Shown piece by piece: positions 7,521 to 36,219 of a stretch of DNA of 37,341 bases (positions are counted from its first letter, which is position 1; each line of letters begins with the position of its first letter). The position numbers and the translations under genes are program-made. Source of the stretch: Candidatus Moranbacteria bacterium RIFOXYB1_FULL_43_19 (lineage in GTDB: Bacteria; Patescibacteriota; Minisyncoccia; Moranbacterales; UBA11712); contig MFSH01000017.1 in assembly GCA_001784875.1 (NCBI GenBank), positions 1 to 37,341 on the forward strand. The letters are read 5' to 3'. The notes below the pieces were generated by a model. The model made no database searches. It was not told where the DNA came from and worked only from the letters and a program-made list of their open reading frames with translations.

Positions 7521-7549
7521 CCACTCCCAACATCGGATGTTGGGAGTGG
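7521..7549. repeat. REP-like palindrome upstream of the RAYT gene
   Basis: The arms CCACTCCCAACATC and GATGTTGGGAGTGG are perfect reverse complements around a single G (7535). The inner 23 bp are identical to the palindrome at 8238-8260, so the transposase gene is bracketed by two copies. The hairpin may also end the LCP transcript, although it has no T-run after it. Confidence 0.92.
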
Positions 7550-7563
7550 ATGTCGCAAAAAAA

Positions 7564-8229
7564 ATGCGCAAAAAGGCTCTGTCTGAAAACGGATTTTATC
7601 ATATTTATAACCGCGGAGTCGATAAGCGAACTGTTTTTCTTGATGACCTAGACTATCGGAGATTTCTGCTTTCGATTGATCTGCTAAACGACGAAAAAGA
7701 CGGCTTAATGCAGGCTTGGCGGGATTATAAAAGGGATAATCCGCAAATGAACATCCAGGATTTTCTGAAATCAAGAGTTAGAAAAAGAAATGCCTTGGTC
7801 AAAATCATCACTTATTCTCTCATTTCAAACCATTACCATTTTATTTTGGAGCAAGTTTCTGAGAAAGGAATCGAGAAATTTATGCAAAAACTTGGAAACA
7901 GCTTTACTAAATACTTCAATGAGCGCCACGAGAGAAATGGCGCTTTGTTTCAGGGGAAATTCAAATCGTCGCATATCAGTTCAACGAGCCAGCTCTTGAG
8001 ACTTTCCGTATACGTGAACTGCAACAGCGAGATTCACAAAATCCATCCGGCAAAAAACTATAAATGGTGCAGTTTCGCTGATTATTTGAAACCCGAAAGA
8101 AGCAGCATTTGCCAAAAGAAGGTAATTATGGATAATTTTGAAAACCCGAGAAATTACGAAGAATACGCCAAAGAAAATATATCAAGCTTCCAGCAGGAAA
8201 AAGAAGACCAGAAGCTCGTTTTGGAATAA
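7564..8229 (+). CDS. REP-associated tyrosine transposase (RAYT-like, Y1/HUH family)
   Basis: This single-domain HUH nuclease of about 221 residues belongs to the Y1_Tnp (IS200-like) superfamily, the type that acts on REP palindromes. It starts MRKKALSENGFYHIYNRG. The metal-binding HUH motif is SNHYHFIL (H90 and H92). The conserved block TKYFNERHERNGALFQGKFKS follows, then YVNCNSEIHKIHPAKNY, where Y150 is the likely catalytic tyrosine. The C-terminal WCSFADYL motif is also present. It looks intact. A TTG at 7537 would place the start inside the flanking palindrome, so the ATG at 7564 was chosen. Identical palindromes on both sides support the RAYT assignment. Whether it is active is unknown. 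Confidence 0.9.
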   Translation: MRKKALSENGFYHIYNRGVDKRTVFLDDLDYRRFLLSIDLLNDEKDGLMQAWRDYKRDNPQMNIQDFLKSRVRKRNALVKIITYSLISNHYHFILEQVSEKGIEKFMQKLGNSFTKYFNERHERNGALFQGKFKSSHISSTSQLLRLSVYVNCNSEIHKIHPAKNYKWCSFADYLKPERSSICQKKVIMDNFENPRNYEEYAKENISSFQQEKEDQKLVLE

Positions 8230-8237
8230 AAACAATT

Positions 8238-8260
8238 CTCCCAACATCGGATGTTGGGAG
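8238..8260. repeat. REP-like palindrome downstream of the RAYT gene
   Basis: CTCCCAACATC and GATGTTGGGAG surround a central G. The 23 bp are identical to 7524-7546 on the other side of the gene. It starts 9 bp after the transposase stop. A weaker hairpin (TGAAGA 8308-8313 with TCTTCA 8321-8326) follows. Confidence 0.92.
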
Positions 8261-8385: not shown

Positions 8386-8401
8386 AATATTGTGACGTGA
8401 A

Positions 8402-8444
8402 CCTAACATTCAATGTTAGGATCGTCCTAACATTGAATGTTAGG
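8402..8444. repeat. Nested double palindrome immediately before pth
   Basis: CCTAACATT-C-AATGTTAGG (8402-8420) and CCTAACATT-G-AATGTTAGG (8426-8444) are separated by ATCGT. Each unit is a palindrome, and the second is the exact reverse complement of the first, so the block can fold as two hairpins or one long one. It ends three bases before the pth ATG. The arms match the RAYT-flanking palindrome except for paired C-to-T and G-to-A changes. Confidence 0.92.
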
Positions 8445-8447
8445 TAT

Positions 8448-9404: not shown

Positions 9405-10507
9405 GTCCGGAAACATCAGTTCGGGAACTGTTATTTTATCACGCTTTTTCGTGCGTTGGCGGTTTTGGGCCGCAGAAGTTTAAAAAACTGCTTTCTTATT
9501 TTGGCTCGCTTGAAAAGGCCTGGGGCGCCGGACGGGAAGACTTGATCGCCGCTGACATCGGTCCGGCCGCCACGAAAAATTTTCTTGAAAAAAGAAACGG
9601 CCTGGTGCCCGAAAAACTTTTTTCGGAGCTTGAGAAGGAACATATCGGCCTCATCACCCCGAGCAGCCAATTTTATCCATCCCAGCTCAAAGAAACCCCT
9701 TCTGCGCCAGCTGTTATATATGGAAGGGGAAACTTGGAAATTCTCAAGAATAAGTCGATCGCCGTCGTCGGGTCGCGAAAATTCACCGAATACGGCCAAA
9801 GAGCCACCCAGAATTTGTGCCGCGATCTTGTCCGTGCCGGGCTCACGATTGTGAGCGGCCTCGCCCTCGGGATTGACGCCATCGCCCACCGGGCGACGCT
9901 CGACGCGGAAGGCTCGACGATTGCCGTTCTTGGAACCGGCATAGACGATGAAACAATCTATCCCCGCGACAATTTCAACCTGGCGCATGACATTCTCGCA
10001 AATGGAGGAACGCTCATCACCGAATATCCTCCCAAAACGCCATCCCTCAAACAAAATTTTCCCGCCCGGAACCGCATCATGGCCGGAATCACGCTCGGTA
10101 CGCTCGTCGTGGAAGCAGCTCTCGATTCCGGATCACTCATCACGGCGGGACTCGCCCTTGAATCCGGCCGCGAAGTCTTTGCCGTTCCCGGCCCGATTTT
10201 TTCGCCCCAGTCAGCGGGAGCCAATTTTCTTTTGAAAAGCGGGGCCAAACTGGTTGAATCGGCAACAGACGTTTTGCAGGAACTCAATCTTTCGGAGTCC
10301 AACCGGCCAGCGCCTCAAAAAATATACGAACCGAAAACAAGAGAAGAAAAAAAGATTTGGAACGCACTCAGCTCCGATCCCCTTCATGTTGACAGACTCG
10401 TGAAATTGACTAGACTTAATCCAGCGACCATCGGTTCGACGCTGGCAACTCTTGAAATTCAGGGCGTGGTGAAAAATATCGGCGGACAAAATTATATTAG
10501 AATATAG
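9398..10507 (+). CDS. dprA: DNA processing protein DprA
   Basis: DprA (Smf) loads RecA on incoming single-stranded DNA during natural transformation. The 369-residue protein has an N-terminal SAM/HhH-like region (residues 1-75), then a Rossmann-fold domain with SIAVVGSRKFTEYG, GLTIVSGLALGIDAIAH, YPRDNFNLA, FPARNRIMAGITLGTLVVEA and GREVFAVPG. It ends with a winged-helix domain (about 305-369). All typical motifs are present. The ATG at 9398 has no Shine-Dalgarno. A TATAGC near 9380-9385 could serve as a -10 box for a very short leader, but this is weak. Many Patescibacteria keep competence genes, consistent with uptake of DNA as a nutrient or for recombination. Confidence 0.95.
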   Translation: MSSPETSVRELLFYHAFSCVGGFGPQKFKKLLSYFGSLEKAWGAGREDLIAADIGPAATKNFLEKRNGLVPEKLFSELEKEHIGLITPSSQFYPSQLKETPSAPAVIYGRGNLEILKNKSIAVVGSRKFTEYGQRATQNLCRDLVRAGLTIVSGLALGIDAIAHRATLDAEGSTIAVLGTGIDDETIYPRDNFNLAHDILANGGTLITEYPPKTPSLKQNFPARNRIMAGITLGTLVVEAALDSGSLITAGLALESGREVFAVPGPIFSPQSAGANFLLKSGAKLVESATDVLQELNLSESNRPAPQKIYEPKTREEKKIWNALSSDPLHVDRLVKLTRLNPATIGSTLATLEIQGVVKNIGGQNYIRI

Positions 10508-10608
10508 AATTGTGAATTGAGAATTCAGAATGGGAATATTGAATTTAGAATTCTAGATTCATTATTCTTGATTCCCATTCACAATTCACAATTCTAAATT
10601 CACAATTC
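10505..10608. repeat. Intergenic palindrome between dprA and topA
   Basis: The left arm (TAGAATTGTGAATTGAGAATT, GAATGGGAATATTGAA) is mirrored on the right (TTCTTGATTCCCATTC, ACAATTCACAATTCT). The element begins with the TAG stop codon of dprA and ends two bases before the topA ATG, filling the junction exactly. No second copy of these words is seen in the window. Confidence 0.8.
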
Positions 10609-10609
10609 T

Positions 10610-12865
10610 ATGAACTTAATCATCGTTGAGTCTCCAACCAAAGCCCGGACAATTTCCAAATTTCTGGGTAAAGATTTCAAGGTCAAATCCTCTTTCGGCC
10701 ATATTCGCGATCTTCCGCAGAAGGAAATGGGCGTTGATATTGAAAACAATTTCGCGCCGAAATATGTCGTGAATGCCAAGGCCCGCGAGAAAGTGAAGCC
10801 ATTGAAAGAGGATATGAAAAAGGCCCAGACTGTGATTCTCGCCACTGACGAAGACCGCGAAGGCGAAGCCATTGCCTGGCACCTTTCGGAAATTTTGAAG
10901 CTCAATTCCCAGGAAAAAAACCGGATTGTTTTCCATGAAATTACCAAAAAGGCCATCGAGGAAGCGCTCGGAAACCCGCGATCGATTGATTTTCATCTCG
11001 TCGACGCCCAGCAGGCTCGGCGCATTCTCGACCGACTCGTCGGCTATGAGCTCTCCCCCCTTCTCTGGAAAAAAATAAAACGGGGTCTTTCGGCTGGGCG
11101 AGTCCAATCAATTGCTCTTCGCATCATTTGCGAACGAGAACGAGAAATTGAAAAATTTTCAAAAGAAGAATACTGGACAATTTCGGCGATGCTCCGTCCC
11201 GAGACTAAGTCTTGGAAAAAATCCCAAGACTTAGTTTTGGAAGAGTTCGAAGCCGCATTGATCCAGCAAAACGAGAAAAAAATCGAAGGAATCACTTCTC
11301 TCAAACTTTTTGCCGGAGATTATAAATCAAAAAAATCTTCCATCAAAAGCGAAAAAGAGGCTCAAGAAATCAAATCAGAACTCGAAAAAGGGGTTTTCCA
11401 AGTTTCTGAAGTTCTGAAAAAGGAAACCATGCGAACTCCCCCGCCGCCCTTCACCACCTCCACGCTCCAGCAAGCGGCCATCAACAGCTTGGGATTTTCA
11501 GCAAAGCAAACTATGATGATCGCCCAAAAACTTTATGAGCAGGGGCACATCACTTATATGCGCACCGACAGCACCAGCCTTTCCCTTCCTTCGATGCTGG
11601 CCGCGAAGAAAACAATTGAGAAAAATTTTGGAAAAAATTACGCGCTCGAAAGCCCGCGGTTTTATAAAACCAAATCAAAAGGCGCTCAAGAAGCCCACGA
11701 AGCAATCCGACCAACCAGACCGGACATTTTACCCGATGAACTGAATGGCTCTCTCGACGCTAACCAGCACAAATTGTATCGGCTTATCTGGCGCCGGATG
11801 GTCGCCTCGCAGATGAGAGCTGCCGTCCTCAATTCGGTTCGGGTTTTGATTGACGCCAAGGGCAGCCAAAATAATTATACTTTCCAAGCCAACGGCTCGA
11901 CGGTGAAATTTGATGGTTACCTGAAAATATACGGGGATAAAATTCCTGTAACGGAAAATCTTCTTCCTCCTCTCAAAGAAAAAGAGATTTTGGACCTGGC
12001 GCAAGTGAAGGCCAATCAAAAAGAAACCCTGCCCCCGCCCCGCTACACGGAAGCCGGCCTTGTGAAGGTCCTCGAAGAAAATGGGATTGGCCGGCCGTCG
12101 ACATACGCTCCGACTATATCGACGATATTCGACCGGAAATATATCGATAAAAACGAGGAGCGCCGGCTCTTCCCGTTGGAAATCGGCTTTCTGGTGAATG
12201 ATTTGCTTGTGGAGCATTTTCCCCAGATTGTCGACATGACATTCACGGCCACAATTGAAGAAGATTTTGACCGGATTGCTGAAGGCAAAAAAGAATGGGT
12301 GCCTGTCATCCGTGAATTTTATAAACCTTTCCATAAAAACCTTGAAAGTAAATCTAAGGAGATAAAGAAAGAAGATATTCTTGAAAAACTCGACAAAAAA
12401 TGCCCCGAATGCGGCGGCGACCTTCTGGTGCGCTTCGGAAGATTCGGAAAATTTATCGCCTGCAACAATTTTCCCAAATGCAAATATACCGAAAAAACGG
12501 CCGAGGAGAAAAAAGTTGAAGACGAAAACAGCGGCGAGGCCTGTCCGGAGTGCGGCGCGCCAATGATTGTGAAAAGAGGAAAATACGGCGCTTTTCTGGG
12601 ATGTTCGAAATATCCCGACTGCAAAGGCATCAAAAAAATTACTTCCGATAAAACGACCGGCGTGAAATGCCCCAAGTGTGGCGTGGGAGAAATTTTGGAA
12701 CGCCGCTCGAGGAAGGGACGGCTTTTTTACGGTTGCAGCGGATATCCAAAATGCGATTTTTCTCTCTGGAACCGGCCTTCCGGAAAAACTTGTGAAAAAT
12801 GCGGAAGTCTTATGGTTTTTCAAATGAAAGGAACGGAGAAATGCAGCAATAAAGAATGCAAGTAG
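10610..12865 (+). CDS. topA: DNA topoisomerase I (type IA) with zinc ribbons
   Basis: TopA relaxes negative supercoils by a type IA mechanism. The 751-residue protein starts with the Toprim domain (LIIVESPTKARTISKFLG, and the acidic DxDxE-type motif in ATDEDREGEAIAWHL). The active-site Tyr is in HITYMRTDSTSLS near residue 317. The C-terminus has three full zinc ribbons, each beginning CPEC or CPKC (near 598, 645 and 687), and a shorter CxxC-x(n)-CxxxxC unit at the end. Residues about 198-212 (ETKSWKKSQDLVLEE) are encoded by a nested palindromic element inserted in frame. The stop TAG is the first three bases of a family A repeat. Confidence 0.96.
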   Translation: MNLIIVESPTKARTISKFLGKDFKVKSSFGHIRDLPQKEMGVDIENNFAPKYVVNAKAREKVKPLKEDMKKAQTVILATDEDREGEAIAWHLSEILKLNSQEKNRIVFHEITKKAIEEALGNPRSIDFHLVDAQQARRILDRLVGYELSPLLWKKIKRGLSAGRVQSIALRIICEREREIEKFSKEEYWTISAMLRPETKSWKKSQDLVLEEFEAALIQQNEKKIEGITSLKLFAGDYKSKKSSIKSEKEAQEIKSELEKGVFQVSEVLKKETMRTPPPPFTTSTLQQAAINSLGFSAKQTMMIAQKLYEQGHITYMRTDSTSLSLPSMLAAKKTIEKNFGKNYALESPRFYKTKSKGAQEAHEAIRPTRPDILPDELNGSLDANQHKLYRLIWRRMVASQMRAAVLNSVRVLIDAKGSQNNYTFQANGSTVKFDGYLKIYGDKIPVTENLLPPLKEKEILDLAQVKANQKETLPPPRYTEAGLVKVLEENGIGRPSTYAPTISTIFDRKYIDKNEERRLFPLEIGFLVNDLLVEHFPQIVDMTFTATIEEDFDRIAEGKKEWVPVIREFYKPFHKNLESKSKEIKKEDILEKLDKKCPECGGDLLVRFGRFGKFIACNNFPKCKYTEKTAEEKKVEDENSGEACPECGAPMIVKRGKYGAFLGCSKYPDCKGIKKITSDKTTGVKCPKCGVGEILERRSRKGRLFYGCSGYPKCDFSLWNRPSGKTCEKCGSLMVFQMKGTEKCSNKECK
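11199..11240. repeat. Nested palindrome inserted in frame in topA
   Basis: CCGAGACTAAGTCTTGG (11199-11215) and CCAAGACTTAGTTTTGG (11224-11240) are separated by 8 bp. Each is close to the palindrome CCAAGACT-N-AGTCTTGG found in uppP. The element encodes ETKSWKKSQDLVLE in a part of TopA that is normally variable. Confidence 0.85.
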
Positions 12866-19319: not shown

Positions 19320-20147
19320 TCAGGCCCGAAAAAAATATACTGATATGATGACCAAAGCCAGCGCCAGCCGGTACCAGAAAAAAATAGCATAACTTGTTCG
19401 CTCTACAAACTTCAAAAGGTATTTTATCGCCAGATACCCACTCACAGCCGCGGAAAGCATTCCTAAAACGAGATAAATATCCAATCCATTTTTTAAAAGA
19501 TGCGGCAATTCCGCGGCCGCCGCTCCCAAAATTATGGGCGTGGAAAGAAGAAATGAAAACCGCGCCGCTGACTCACGATTGAGACCAAGAAAAAGTCCTG
19601 TGGTAATCGTCGCGCCTGAGCGAGATACGCCGGGAAAAATTGCCGCGGCCTGCGAAAGACCGACCAAAAGACTGTCTGACCAGGAAATCTTCCCTAAATT
19701 TTTTCGGTGTCGGTGGTATCTGTCAACGAGATACAGAACCAGGCCGACTAAACTCAATGTTATTGCAATCGGGATCGGCGACCGAAAAGACGACTCGGCG
19801 TAATTTTCCAAAAAATATCCGGCGAGGATTCCAGGGATGGTCGCTAATACTAACAGCCACAACATTTCATTCTTAAAGCTATCTATCCCAAGACTAAGTC
19901 TTGGAAAGCTTTTCCAAGACTTAGTCTTGGAAAAAAGAGCTAGCCGAAAAATCTCAATCCAATCTTTCCAAAAATATAGAACTACGGCAATTAATGTCCC
20001 GAAATGCAAAGCCACATCAAACGAAAGCCCCGGATCGGAAAAACGAAAAAGCCACGGCGCCAGAATCAAATGGGCCGAACTGGAGATCGGCAGAAATTCA
20101 GATGCGCCTTGGATTATTCCAAGGATTAGAGAATGAAAAACAGTCAT
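19320..20147 (-). CDS. uppP: Undecaprenyl-diphosphatase UppP (BacA)
   Basis: UppP dephosphorylates undecaprenyl pyrophosphate, recycling the lipid carrier for cell-wall and surface polymers, and confers bacitracin tolerance. The 275-residue polytopic protein has the two family motifs: QGASEFLPISSSAHL (13-27) and PGVSRSGATITTGL (near 172). Residues 74-87 (KTKSWKSFPRLSLG), in the loop after an early hydrophobic segment, are encoded by a 43-bp nested palindrome that also occurs in topA. Such loops vary in the family, so the protein is probably functional. The upstream junction is a family B palindrome, and there is no visible Shine-Dalgarno. Confidence 0.95.
   Translation of the reverse strand: MTVFHSLILGIIQGASEFLPISSSAHLILAPWLFRFSDPGLSFDVALHFGTLIAVVLYFWKDWIEIFRLALFSKTKSWKSFPRLSLGIDSFKNEMLWLLVLATIPGILAGYFLENYAESSFRSPIPIAITLSLVGLVLYLVDRYHRHRKNLGKISWSDSLLVGLSQAAAIFPGVSRSGATITTGLFLGLNRESAARFSFLLSTPIILGAAAAELPHLLKNGLDIYLVLGMLSAAVSGYLAIKYLLKFVERTSYAIFFWYRLALALVIISVYFFRA
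19888..19930. repeat. Nested palindrome inserted in frame in uppP
   Basis: CCAAGACTAAGTCTTGG (19888-19904) and CCAAGACTTAGTCTTGG (19914-19930) are separated by AAAGCTTTT. Each half is a palindrome around one base, and the second is the exact reverse complement of the first. It encodes UppP residues 74-87. A diverged copy is in topA at 11199-11240. Confidence 0.93.
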
Positions 20148-27001: not shown

Positions 27002-29629
27002 CTAAACAACTAAATTTATTATCCTATCTTTCACAAATATAATTTTCCGGATATTTTTGCTTTCTGTATATTTTTTAATTTTCGGACTTTCGAGCGCCCT
27101 TTTTTTCATTTCTTCCTCGCTCGCGCCCGCAGCCAATCTCAACTGGTCGCGCATCTTTCCATTTATTTGGACAACAATTATTGCCTCTTCGTCTTTTATT
27201 AGTTTTGGATCATATTTCGGCCATTTTTCGAGAAAAATCGAATTTTTGTTTCCGAGATTTTCGTGCCATATTTCCTCGCAAATATGCGGTGCAAACGGAG
27301 CAAGTAGCATTAAAAATTTTTCAAATCTCTCTCTGCTAATATTAAATTTTTCAACCTCATTTACAAAAATCATCATCTCTGAAATCGCGGTATTGAATTT
27401 TAAATTTTCGATATCTTCAGAAACTTTTTTAATAGTTTTGTTTAAGTGTTTATTGATAATTTCAATATCCGATCGACCTCTTTCTTTTTGACGATCAGTC
27501 AAATCTTCGTTTTTTAGGACAAAGGATAATTCCGATCCTCTCATTTTCTCCTTATCTTCGGTTAACCGATCGGGATAAATGTTCCAAACTTTATCAAGAA
27601 ATCTTTTTAACCCTATAATACTAGATGTGTTCCACACCTTCGAATCTTCCAGCGGTCCCATGAACATCTCATAAAGCCTGAGAACGTCCGCGCCGTATTT
27701 TTCGACAATTTCATCGGGATTGATGACATTCCCCAAAGACTTTGACATTTTCCTCCCATCTTCCGAAAGAACAATTCCCTGATGGCGCAATTTTGAAAAC
27801 GGCTCGTCAAAATCAATATAGCCGTATTTATGCAAAGCCTTCGTGAAAAACCGGGAATAGAGCAAATGCAAAACGGTGTGCTCCGCCCCGCCGATATAGA
27901 AATCGATCGGCAGCCATTTTTTCATTTCATCGCGCGCGGCGAATTCTTTTTCATTCTTTGGATCGGAAAAGCGGAAAAAATACCATGAGGAACAGACAAA
28001 TGTGTCCATCGTGTCGGTCTCGCGTTTAGCCGGCCCACCGCATTTCGGACATTTCACGTTCACGAAATCCGGATTAGTCCCCAGCGGAGATGTTCCTTTC
28101 GGGCGATAATCTTTAATCTCGGGAAGAAGAACTGGCAAGTCTTTTTCTGCGACTGGAATGATTGCGCATTCTTTACCACCTATTGTCGCCGTCTCAAAGT
28201 TCGGCTTTTCCCTTCCGAAAGTTGAACTTTCGGAATTCCTTAAAGCCAAGCTTTTGCATTTCTCGCAATAAATAATCGGGATCGGCGCGCCCCAGTAGCG
28301 CTGGCGCGAAATCAGCCAGTCCCGCAATTTGTATGTAGTTCTCTTTCCGCCCAGGTCATTTTTCTCGAGCCATTTGGCCATTTCCTCCCGCGCTTTTTGG
28401 GAAGTGAGGCCGGAGTATTTGCCAGAGCTGATCAATTCCCCATCACAAGTGAAGCATTCTGATTCGACTCGCAATTCCGTTTTGGCTCCCGCAGCAATAT
28501 CTTCCAAGTTTCTTGGTATGTTCAGAAGTTTTCCCGGCACAATCACTTTTCTAATAGGTAAATTGTGTTTTTTCGCAAACTCCCAGTCCCGCTCGTCGTG
28601 AGCCGGAACCGCCATCACAGCGCCGGTGCCGTAAGTAGAAAGAACAAAGTCGGCAATAAAAATCGGTACTTCTTCTTTTGTGAAAGGATTTATCGCTTTC
28701 AGTCCCTTAATTTCAACGCCCGTTTTTTCTTTCGCCAGATCCGTCCGCTCGAGATCGGTTTTCTTTTTTGCCTTGTTTATATATTTCTCAATTTCTTGGA
28801 AATTCGAAATTTGATCTTTCGACTCCTGGACTAGTTTGTGCTCCGGAGCAACTACACAATAAGTGCATCCAAAAATAGTATCGAGCCGCGTCGTGAAAGT
28901 TTCCAGAAAATAATTTTCCCCGACCTTAAATTTGATATTCGCGCCGACGGATTTTCCGATCCAATTTTTCTGCGCCGTTTTAGTCGACTGGGGCCAGTCA
29001 ACTTTTTCAAGACCTTCTATGAGCTTTTCTGCAAAATCAGTAATGCGGAAAAACCATTGTTCCATATCTTTTTGGACCACCTCATTTTTGCACCGTTCGC
29101 AAATTCCACCTTCTGCCTGTTCGTTCGCCAGCACCGTCTGGCATGATTCGCACCAATTCACCTTGGCTTTTTTCCGATAGGCTAATCCATTTTTATAAAA
29201 AAATAAAAAGAGCCACTGGGTCCATTTGTAATAATTTGGATCGGAGGTATCGATTTCGCGCGACCAGTCATAGGAAAGCCCGAGGCTTTTGATCTGCCCG
29301 GTGAATATTTCGATATTTTTTTTCGTCGAATCAGCGGGATGAACGCCGGATTTGATAGCAAAATTTTCAGCCGGAAGACCAAATGCGTCCCATCCCATTG
29401 GGTGCAGGACGTTTTTCCCGTTCATACGCTGGTAACGGGAATATACATCTGACGCGGTATAGCCTTCCACGTGCCCAACATGAAGACCGTCTCCTGACGG
29501 ATAGGGAAACATATCCAGGCAATAGAATTTTGGCTTTTCCGATTTTTCATCTGCCTCAAAGAGTTCTGGATGTTTCGTCCAATATTCTAGCCACTTATTC
29601 TCTATGATTTGGGGATTGTATTTTTTCAT
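27002..29629 (-). CDS. leuS: Leucine-tRNA ligase
   Basis: LeuS is the class I synthetase that charges tRNA-Leu, such as the one in this window. The 875-residue protein has the HIGH-type motif PYPSGDGLHVGHVEGY, the CP1 editing domain (TTRLDTIFGCTYCVVAPEH, GTGAVMAVPAHDERD) and the zinc-type CEKC and CPKCGG clusters. The KMSKS loop is at 627-631, and an anticodon-binding helical domain follows. Between CEKC and IPVAEKDLPVLLPE, about 30 residues (roughly 461-490) are inserted compared with common bacterial LeuS, partly encoded by a palindrome. The ATG at 29629 has no strong Shine-Dalgarno. A 200-bp leader separates it from the TrpR-like gene. Confidence 0.96.
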   Translation of the reverse strand: MKKYNPQIIENKWLEYWTKHPELFEADEKSEKPKFYCLDMFPYPSGDGLHVGHVEGYTASDVYSRYQRMNGKNVLHPMGWDAFGLPAENFAIKSGVHPADSTKKNIEIFTGQIKSLGLSYDWSREIDTSDPNYYKWTQWLFLFFYKNGLAYRKKAKVNWCESCQTVLANEQAEGGICERCKNEVVQKDMEQWFFRITDFAEKLIEGLEKVDWPQSTKTAQKNWIGKSVGANIKFKVGENYFLETFTTRLDTIFGCTYCVVAPEHKLVQESKDQISNFQEIEKYINKAKKKTDLERTDLAKEKTGVEIKGLKAINPFTKEEVPIFIADFVLSTYGTGAVMAVPAHDERDWEFAKKHNLPIRKVIVPGKLLNIPRNLEDIAAGAKTELRVESECFTCDGELISSGKYSGLTSQKAREEMAKWLEKNDLGGKRTTYKLRDWLISRQRYWGAPIPIIYCEKCKSLALRNSESSTFGREKPNFETATIGGKECAIIPVAEKDLPVLLPEIKDYRPKGTSPLGTNPDFVNVKCPKCGGPAKRETDTMDTFVCSSWYFFRFSDPKNEKEFAARDEMKKWLPIDFYIGGAEHTVLHLLYSRFFTKALHKYGYIDFDEPFSKLRHQGIVLSEDGRKMSKSLGNVINPDEIVEKYGADVLRLYEMFMGPLEDSKVWNTSSIIGLKRFLDKVWNIYPDRLTEDKEKMRGSELSFVLKNEDLTDRQKERGRSDIEIINKHLNKTIKKVSEDIENLKFNTAISEMMIFVNEVEKFNISRERFEKFLMLLAPFAPHICEEIWHENLGNKNSIFLEKWPKYDPKLIKDEEAIIVVQINGKMRDQLRLAAGASEEEMKKRALESPKIKKYTESKNIRKIIFVKDRIINLVV
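28203..28247. repeat. Palindrome inserted in frame in leuS
   Basis: The core arms TTCCGAAAGTT and AACTTTCGGAA (28213-28235, central G) are perfect. They are extended by GGCTTTTCC on one side and TTAAAGCC on the other. It encodes part of the extra LeuS segment (LALRNSESSTFGREKP) between the CEKC motif and IPVAEKDLP. Confidence 0.85.
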
Positions 29630-29831
29630 TTATCTTGCTTGCCTGCCAAAGCTTTAGCGTTGGCGGGCCATTTCTTTTCAATTTTTCGGCATTATTTTTA
29701 TCCATATTCAGACTTGCTCCCTCCTTTCACTTTAGCGAGTTTGGAGTTTTTTTTCAAGGCAAACCCAAAAACTACCCTATTTCAAAATACTCCACCCTTC
29801 TCTGTCATAATTTAAAATAATATATTTTCTT
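29630..29831. other. leuS leader region with a GC-rich hairpin
   Basis: This 200-bp gene-free interval contains a hairpin, GCCTGCCAA (29641-29649) with TTGGCGGGC (29660-29668), close to the leuS start. It also has a Shine-Dalgarno-like AAAGGAGGG on the minus strand (about 29724-29732). The latter precedes a possible 36-codon upstream frame that overlaps the leuS start, but its spacing is too long to trust. A short AGGGTGGA word recalls a T-box, yet no specifier stem or antiterminator is visible. Confidence 0.45.
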
Positions 29832-29861
29832 AGTATACAGTATACTAGTATACTGTATACT
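29832..29861. promoter_or_regulatory. 30-bp perfect palindrome at the 3' end of the TrpR-like gene (probable operator)
   Basis: AGTATACAGTATACT (29832-29846) is followed directly by its exact reverse complement. Its inner 22 bp are identical to the palindrome in the promoter of the same gene (30333-30354). It contains the stop codon of the TrpR-like gene and lies about 200 bp upstream of leuS, so it could also control leuS. Confidence 0.75.
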
Positions 29862-30294
29862 ACCGTTTTTTGTGTTCGTCGAGAAGGTTGAGAAGAAGGA
29901 AATGAAGTGGATATTTTCTTTTGACAGCCTGCCAGGAAAAAGGAGCGGCTGGCAAAGTTTGTTTTCTTTTTCTCAATTGGCCGTCTTTGAATCGGCGAAC
30001 CACTGACTTATATCCCCCAAAACCGCTATTGAGCCAGCGGTCCACATGAGAAATGGTGGATATCCCAATCTTCATTTTTCTTCTTATTTCTTCACATTTA
30101 TAACCCTCCATAAGCATTCTTGCCACATGCAAACGCCGAGAAATCATCACTACTTCGCTCAAGGTTAAAAGATCCTTGAAAAAATTTTTCGCTTCCTCCC
30201 GACTTCGAAGAAGCGATATCATTGTATAGAACTCGCCGAGATATTTTTTCTTCTCAATCTCGGTCAGTTGGCCGTATCTCACTTTCCCAGCCAT
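29860..30294 (-). CDS. TrpR/YerC-YecD family transcriptional regulator
   Basis: This 144-residue protein has a Trp-repressor-like helical fold. The FFKDLLTLSEVVMISRRLHVARMLMEGYKCEEIRRKMKIGISTISHVDRWL stretch (split over about residues 38-88) matches the conserved E..MI..R and HTH pattern of TrpR and the YerC/YecD subgroup. The GGYKSVVRRF that follows is also typical. The subgroup's ligand and targets are not established, and no trp genes are seen here. A C-terminal basic extension of about 50 residues is longer than in E. coli TrpR. A perfect palindrome overlaps its promoter, and a second copy overlaps its stop codon, so autoregulation is likely. Confidence 0.88.
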   Translation of the reverse strand: MAGKVRYGQLTEIEKKKYLGEFYTMISLLRSREEAKNFFKDLLTLSEVVMISRRLHVARMLMEGYKCEEIRRKMKIGISTISHVDRWLNSGFGGYKSVVRRFKDGQLRKRKQTLPAAPFSWQAVKRKYPLHFLLLNLLDEHKKR

Positions 30295-30331
30295 ATTTTT
30301 ATATGCTAATAATTAAATAAAAATTCCTAAC

Positions 30332-30364
30332 TTACAGTATACTAGTATACTGTAAATTAGACAA
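30332..30364 (-). promoter_or_regulatory. Promoter and overlapping palindromic operator of the TrpR-like gene
   Basis: The 24-bp perfect palindrome at 30332-30355 has arms TTACAGTATACT and AGTATACTGTAA. On the minus strand TTGTCT (30364-30359), a 17-bp spacer and TATACT (30341-30336) form a promoter whose spacer and -10 box lie inside the palindrome. A protein bound there would block RNA polymerase. Confidence 0.75.
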
Positions 30365-31503: not shown

Positions 31504-33042
<1,539 letters not shown>

Positions 33043-35689: not shown

Positions 35690-35820
35690 AATTCAAAATT
35701 TAAAAATCAAAAGTCAAAATGACAATTCAAAATGTAAAATTTTCTTTTTCTTACGCTTGGCAGGCATTTTGAATTTTACATTGTCATTTTGCATTTTGAT
35801 ATTTGCATTTTTAATTTTTA
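35690..35820. repeat. Intergenic imperfect palindrome, family C copy 2
   Basis: The left arm (CAAAAGTCAAAATGACAATT, CAAAATGTAAAATT) is inverted on the right (TTTTACATTGTCATTTTGC). It matches the glmS-glmM junction element at 23660-23791. It reaches from the atpA start codon to the atpH stop codon. Confidence 0.88.
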
Positions 35821-36219
35821 AGCCACTAATGCTTTTTTCAATCTGTCTAGCTGGCCCCGTATGCTCCCATCCACAATCTCGTCTCCAACCCGAATTATTA
35901 TCCCGCCTTTGATACCGGGGTCAACTATATTTTTCAAAATCACTTCTTTTGCTTCATATTTCTCTTTCAGGAAATGTTTTATCTTTTTCGTCTCGATATC
36001 GCCCAATTTTTTACGACTCACGACCTCCGCTTCAACGATTCCTTTTTCTTTGTTATATATGGCTGAAAATTGATCGATGATTTTCCCGGTGAGCTTCAGT
36101 TTCCTATTTCTATATACATAACACGCGAAATCAGCGGCAGATTTTTGAATATCCGCATTCGATTTGTTATCGGTTAGTTCATATAGAACTTGAGCAAGTT
36201 GTTTTGCAGTTGTACGCAT
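35818..36219 (-). CDS. atpH: ATP synthase delta subunit, short form
   Basis: The delta subunit joins the peripheral stalk to the top of F1. The 133-residue protein keeps the C-terminal part (GIKGGIIIRVGDEIVDGSIRGQLDRLKKAL) that binds the b subunit. It is about 45 residues shorter than typical bacterial delta, mainly in the N-terminal helical domain (MRTTAKQLAQVLYELT onward). The position between atpF and atpA is canonical, supporting the call despite low sequence conservation. The start ATG follows a family D palindrome. Confidence 0.88.
   Translation of the reverse strand: MRTTAKQLAQVLYELTDNKSNADIQKSAADFACYVYRNRKLKLTGKIIDQFSAIYNKEKGIVEAEVVSRKKLGDIETKKIKHFLKEKYEAKEVILKNIVDPGIKGGIIIRVGDEIVDGSIRGQLDRLKKALVA

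Follow-up and report, generated by a model that had tools for sequence, protein, structure and literature searches.

Two short in-frame segments, one in the undecaprenyl-diphosphatase gene uppP and one in the DNA topoisomerase I gene topA, are very probably REPIN-like non-autonomous elements of a single palindrome family, F1, whose probable mover is a TnpA-REP-like Y1 (HUH) transposase encoded at C17:46017-46724. The most striking novelty is that sister species carry different palindrome families at the same codon sites in uvrC, pheT, uppP and topA. The features of the window, by which we mean the whole 37,341-nt stretch of DNA that was analyzed, are as follows.

7521-7549, no strand: palindrome CCACTCCCAACATCGGATGTTGGGAGTGG, on the 5' side of the window's transposase gene
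7537-8229 (likely start 7564), plus strand: TnpA-REP-like Y1/HUH transposase, a paralogue of the F1 transposase (PF01797; NHYH motif and Tyr present)
8238-8260, no strand: matching palindrome CTCCCAACATCGGATGTTGGGAG, on the 3' side of the same gene
8401-8445, no strand: probable REPIN-like element of family F6 (CCTAACATT family), a perfect 21-bp nested palindrome just upstream of pth
10610-12865, plus strand: topA (DNA topoisomerase I), host gene (Pfam Topoisom_bac, E=6.8e-128)
11199-11240, plus strand: probable diverged F1 REPIN-like element, in frame in topA (2 mismatches, 8-bp spacer)
19320-20147, minus strand: uppP (undecaprenyl-diphosphatase), host gene (Pfam BacA, E=1.7e-80; PDB 5oon)
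19888-19930, minus strand: probable F1 REPIN-like element, in frame in uppP (two inverted CCAAGACTNAGTCTTGG palindromes and a 9-bp spacer)
28213-28235, minus strand: single palindrome TTCCGAAAGTTCAACTTTCGGAA, in frame in leuS (ORF 27002-29629)

Palindromes inside and between genes

The original prediction described a 43-bp nested palindrome in frame in uppP, and inspection of the sequence found it to be exact at 19888-19930, a perfect arrangement of CCAAGACTAAGTCTTGG-AAAGCTTTT-CCAAGACTTAGTCTTGG that codes for approximately residues 73-87 of UppP. This gapped pattern occurs twice in the window and was never recovered in 100 shuffles. The predicted sister copy in topA was confirmed as a diverged palindrome in frame, coding for approximately residues 197-211 of TopA and, as claimed, the first halves of both share TKSWK while the reading frame differs between their second halves (FPRLSLG in UppP, SQDLVLE in TopA). 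In alignments with about 29 other sequences of each protein, most orthologues lack the palindrome, and those without it do not carry these amino acids; the UppP loop that holds the element is highly variable and is shorter in E. coli, and the TopA region is likewise highly variable, with shorter loops in its orthologues. Both segments are thus insertions in variable loops, as had been proposed.

The 17-bp unit of F1 was found at 15 sites (up to 2 mismatches) in the 1.005-Mb, 23-contig genome against none for a reversed-pattern control, bearing out the expectation of a dispersed repeat with further genomic copies. That the required amino acids simply happen to yield a palindrome, by chance or by convergence at the protein level, has the shared TKSWK in its favor and nothing more; it is refuted by the shuffles, the genomic copies, the different residues of the orthologues and the different frames of the second halves, and we give it next to no probability.

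Outside its transposase gene F1 occupies eight dispersed places, seven of them within ORFs and in frame. The host ORFs are uvrC (twice) and, near its C terminus, a second glycosyltransferase, both confirmed by NCBIfam, together with topA, uppP, a gene that we take to be cysS on our own reading of the sequence, and a glycosyltransferase-like gene presumed to be such on the same basis, with no NCBIfam match. NCBIfam also confirmed argS, pheT, ELP3 and 3-methyladenine glycosylase as hosts of other palindrome families. The two insertions in uvrC (C8:55598-56896) are separate, and the hosts uvrC, argS, pheT, leuS and cysS echo the bias toward repair and tRNA-synthetase genes noted for REPs elsewhere. 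A de novo search recovered 19 nested palindromes from the genome and none from a shuffled genome; nine lie in called ORFs, although those before pth and at C10 are probably 5' of the true starts. The sister genome G001 yielded 11, five of them in ORFs. The element before pth does have the same nested design as the one in uppP, as originally noted, but it belongs to another family (F6) and sits 5' of the likely pth start, outside coding sequence.

As single-stranded DNA, the uppP element folds into a 20-bp hairpin (-21.5 kcal/mol, z -8.2). A hairpin of this strength, together with an argS element that is exactly conserved in two species, could be taken as the mark of a host-useful structure under selection in uppP and topA, such as an mRNA hairpin, a terminator or a protein-binding site. 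We regard this as very improbable, as the element is missing from most orthologues, sister species carry other sequence at the same site, and copies occur in unrelated genes; a transcription terminator in particular was rejected, since the elements lie mid-ORF in essential genes, where termination would be harmful. The F1 palindrome is stop-free in two of three frames per orientation; a description of it as open in all three was dropped, one frame being closed in each orientation.

Transposases paired with palindromes

The genome encodes seven PF01797 (Y1_Tnp) genes, and every one has a palindrome family of its own, located within the gene or next to it. The F1 transposase gene lies 8.7 kb past the end of the window and about 26 kb from uppP, and has F1 copies upstream (46744), at codon 65 (46507) and at its 3' end (46040). 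Its codon-65 insert codes for SFPRLSLGK, the same peptide as in UppP, and its 3'-end copy for DFQDLVLEK, which may be compared with SQDLVLE in TopA. In the G001 orthologue, F1 occurs upstream and at codon 65, and a further copy follows immediately downstream. The seven transposases are diverged (46-65% to the first), each with different palindromes, and none of them forms the near-identical multiple whole copies (ends plus tnpA) of the IS200/IS605 type. For the window's paralogue at 7537-8229, the AlphaFold model (pLDDT 95) had as its top PDB fold match 4ER8, a TnpA-REP with its REP hairpin (E=4e-7); no PDB entry was matched when the transposases were searched by sequence profile, and NCBIfam NF047646 (REP_Tyr_transpos) matched all seven weakly, with the member shown far below the cut-off.

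The pairing extends well beyond this genome. A survey of 80 named genome contigs from Moranbacteria, Giovannonibacteria, Nomurabacteria, Zambryskibacteria, Yanofskybacteria and others, together with 30 loci of the order, gave 106 distinct transposase ORFs. Of the 56 loci with both an internal and a flanking palindrome, 46 had a matching pair, against a mean of 0.88 (maximum 3) over 200 trials with swapped partners, and upstream and downstream palindromes matched in 44 loci against 0.67 with swapped partners. The matching sequence varies between loci and agrees within each. Palindromes stand in frame inside the transposase gene at 46 loci, with the internal copies confined to codons 55-69 or 139-158; where both motifs could be located (37 loci), the stretch between them never held the best-matching internal copy, which preceded HUH in 23 loci and followed Tyr in 14. 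The palindromes keep a conserved outer foot, which in many loci reads ACTT or TTCC, around an inner stem that varies: TTCC...GGAA in the Moranbacteria group, F1 included, and ACTT...AAGT in other Patescibacteria. GTAG or GTGG feet are rare, being seen in a few relatives (L164, L170, L197) and at one G001 transposase locus.

Because 46 of the 106 transposase genes carry their own flanking palindrome in frame, matched within the locus, the elements are best read as REP/REPIN-like and as belonging to TnpA-REP-type transposases. The original prediction was right that a dispersed element is tolerated in variable loops of unrelated proteins, but it missed the probable driving transposase, the kinship to REPs and REPINs, and the presence of other families at the same codon sites in sister species. 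Its analogy with Rickettsia palindromic elements also holds, in that both enter genes in frame and add peptides to unrelated proteins (PMC3733652). It is nonetheless very improbable that the palindromes are such a repeat unlinked to Y1 transposases and that those near transposases are mere further insertions, as palindrome and transposase vary together over dozens of distinct sequences and five G001 transposases each have their own family.

In the REPIN-like reading, a short palindrome present in two inverted copies would form a single long hairpin when the DNA is single-stranded. Work on TnpA-REP and IS200/IS605 has described recognition of a single-stranded DNA hairpin, cleavage by Tyr and rejoining (PMC8266576; PMC6006769); by analogy, the F1 transposase would bind this hairpin, its Tyr would cleave beside the foot, and the element would be rejoined elsewhere. 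Copies in flexible loops may survive in frame because the palindrome leaves two of three frames open in each orientation and adds only a short, tolerable peptide, and the elements, probably selectively neutral, would need no host function. Counterpoints to the F1 transposase as mover are the lack of GTAG, a copy number that is low for a REP family, loops too variable for a clean empty site and its junction to be read, and genome G004 (98% complete), in which no matching transposase was found despite REPIN-like elements in topA and uvrC that are possibly orphans. At C4:384-464, a short transposase fragment with a stop codon lies in a palindrome-rich stretch, a decayed REPtron-like locus.

Codon sites shared by different families

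Comparison with the same-genus genome G001 covered 627 reciprocal best pairs (median 80% identity), the G001 data being without the last 18.7 kb of contig 1 and its topA being taken separately. In 19 cases, palindromes of orthologous ORFs lie within 10 codons of each other, where random placement in variable columns predicts 1.46 (maximum 8 in 2,000 trials) and placement within the variable columns of the same gene predicts 9.1. About nine of these coincidences, plus topA, involve different families. When only multi-copy or strong palindromes are counted (23 and 44, across 876 variable segments), six to seven different-family cases remain against about 1.2 expected, for a P of approximately 1e-3 to 2e-4, a rough Poisson estimate on cases counted by eye.

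Across species, the uppP site holds F1, F2 or a decayed third palindrome, and topA holds F1, GGAAACT and GGAGACT types; one uvrC site (site b) holds five families in five species of the family, the pheT site six palindromes in six species, and the leuS codon that carries TTCCGAAAGTTCAACTTTCGGAA in the window has another family in G001. Each of the G001 families at topA, leuS, ELP3 and argS has its counterpart in the palindrome of a transposase of that genome, in a test of the link at host genes that covered our genome and G001. The argS element is identical at 45 of 45 positions between two species, while both of its flanks are 83% identical. Compensatory drift of one ancestral hairpin at the shared sites is unlikely, as several of the palindromes are multi-copy with their own transposase in the same genome. 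Two side cases touch the same sites: the ELP3 orthologue L371 of G001 has AFAKASAGK from an imperfect palindrome, GCCTTCGCCAAGGCTTCGGC, where our genome has TAGACGTC palindromes, and the UppP loop of L108 (G019) contains tandem CCTGCCTACCGGACAGGCAGG units coding for PAYRTGRQTTCLPDRQA, which make up one more unrelated palindromic repeat at that site.

Fixed codon slots with changing families may result either from successive insertions into loops that tolerate them or from substitution of one family by another on the spot. Tentatively, we put forward the latter for the fixed slots in loops of essential genes and within the transposase genes: whichever HUH transposase is currently active would overwrite them with its own palindrome, leaving the slot heritable and its sequence subject to turnover. 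In such replacement a transposase acting at the old hairpin, or gene conversion, would exchange a resident REPIN for a member of a different family, and an old insertion would be passed on with a sequence that follows the currently active family. This is a stronger version of the best explanation that concerns how sites become occupied, and to us a possible one, though less likely than not. Different families at one codon site in uvrC, pheT, uppP, topA, ELP3 and leuS speak for it, as do the roughly 7 to 10 different-family coincidences in two species against about 1.2 to 1.5 expected. Rewriting in place is further favored by the transposases, whose internal slots are fixed while their sequence tracks the flanking palindromes, and by the exact argS copy. 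In contrast, sister species without a palindrome at these sites (G002 and G005) often have simple tandem repeats there, which favors loops that accept any DNA, and the within-gene expectation implies that part of the effect comes from each gene having few tolerant loops.

Relation to known repeats

The system described here works like that of REPINs and TnpA-REP (RAYT) transposases. As there, short palindromes often stand in inverted pairs, several families share a genome, the transposase gene is flanked by its own palindrome type, and the fold is HUH-Y1 with 4ER8 as best match; the conserved foot and variable inner stem recall the GTAG and variable stem of REPs. Known TnpA-REPs need the GTAG tetranucleotide for good cleavage. 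Here the feet are TTCC...GGAA or ACTT...AAGT and rarely GTAG or GTGG, F1 has neither GTAG (GT[AG]G) nor CGTC, and families number about 2-15 copies (F1 about 15 unit sites), many inside ORFs, unlike the hundreds of mostly extragenic copies of REPs and REPINs. As the GTAG tag and high copy number were both looked for and neither was found, we do not claim membership of the REP family proper.

In-frame REPs within genes, and REPs within tnpA-REP genes of subclass 2.4, have already been published for other phyla. In subclass 2.4 (RAYT group 4), REPs stand in frame inside tnpA-REP genes (Quentin et al. 2018, PMC6006769), a study whose main text does not mention Parcubacteria; our loci share with this subclass the in-frame copies within the transposase gene and the double-foot palindromes, but insertions there generally fall between HuH and Tyr, where we found 0 of 37, and the feet differ. 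Intragenic in-frame REPs in repair and tRNA-synthetase genes of many phyla, including two Xanthomonas species whose recB genes carry different REPs at nearly the same site, were reported by Di Nocera et al. (2013, PMC3733652). The copies described here likewise lie in frame in repair and tRNA-synthetase genes but, unlike those with GTAG/CGTC tags, they include at least four genes in which one site is occupied by different families, across as many as six species. They differ from Rickettsia palindromic elements in having an identifiable cognate transposase and short nested palindromes as units. A literature search of limited coverage found no description of such elements in Patescibacteria; what is new is this lineage, the TTCC and ACTT feet, the location of internal copies ahead of HUH or beyond Tyr, and the extent to which families change at fixed sites.

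These results extend the REP/TnpA-REP world to Patescibacteria and link palindrome-coded peptides of their proteins to a named enzyme family, with the caution that such loop peptides are mobile DNA and not conserved domains. The genes uvrC, pheT, uppP and topA form a natural set of essential genes in which one loop holds different mobile hairpins in different species, and so offer a testable system for asking how elements select their sites or rewrite them, while the many matched transposase-hairpin pairs provide material for working out recognition without a GTAG guide.

Other repeats accompany these elements in the window. Perfect or near-perfect palindromes around AGTATACTAGTATACT occur at 29831-29862 and 30327-30360, with a third at C14:29691, and form another low-copy family with no transposase assigned. 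AT-rich intergenic stretches at 10498-10610, 31509-31610 and 35692-35821 contain degenerate short repeats of the AGAATTxxGAATT and TTCAAAATTT types, and simple repeats like these occupy the uppP and uvrC loops of sister species without palindromes.
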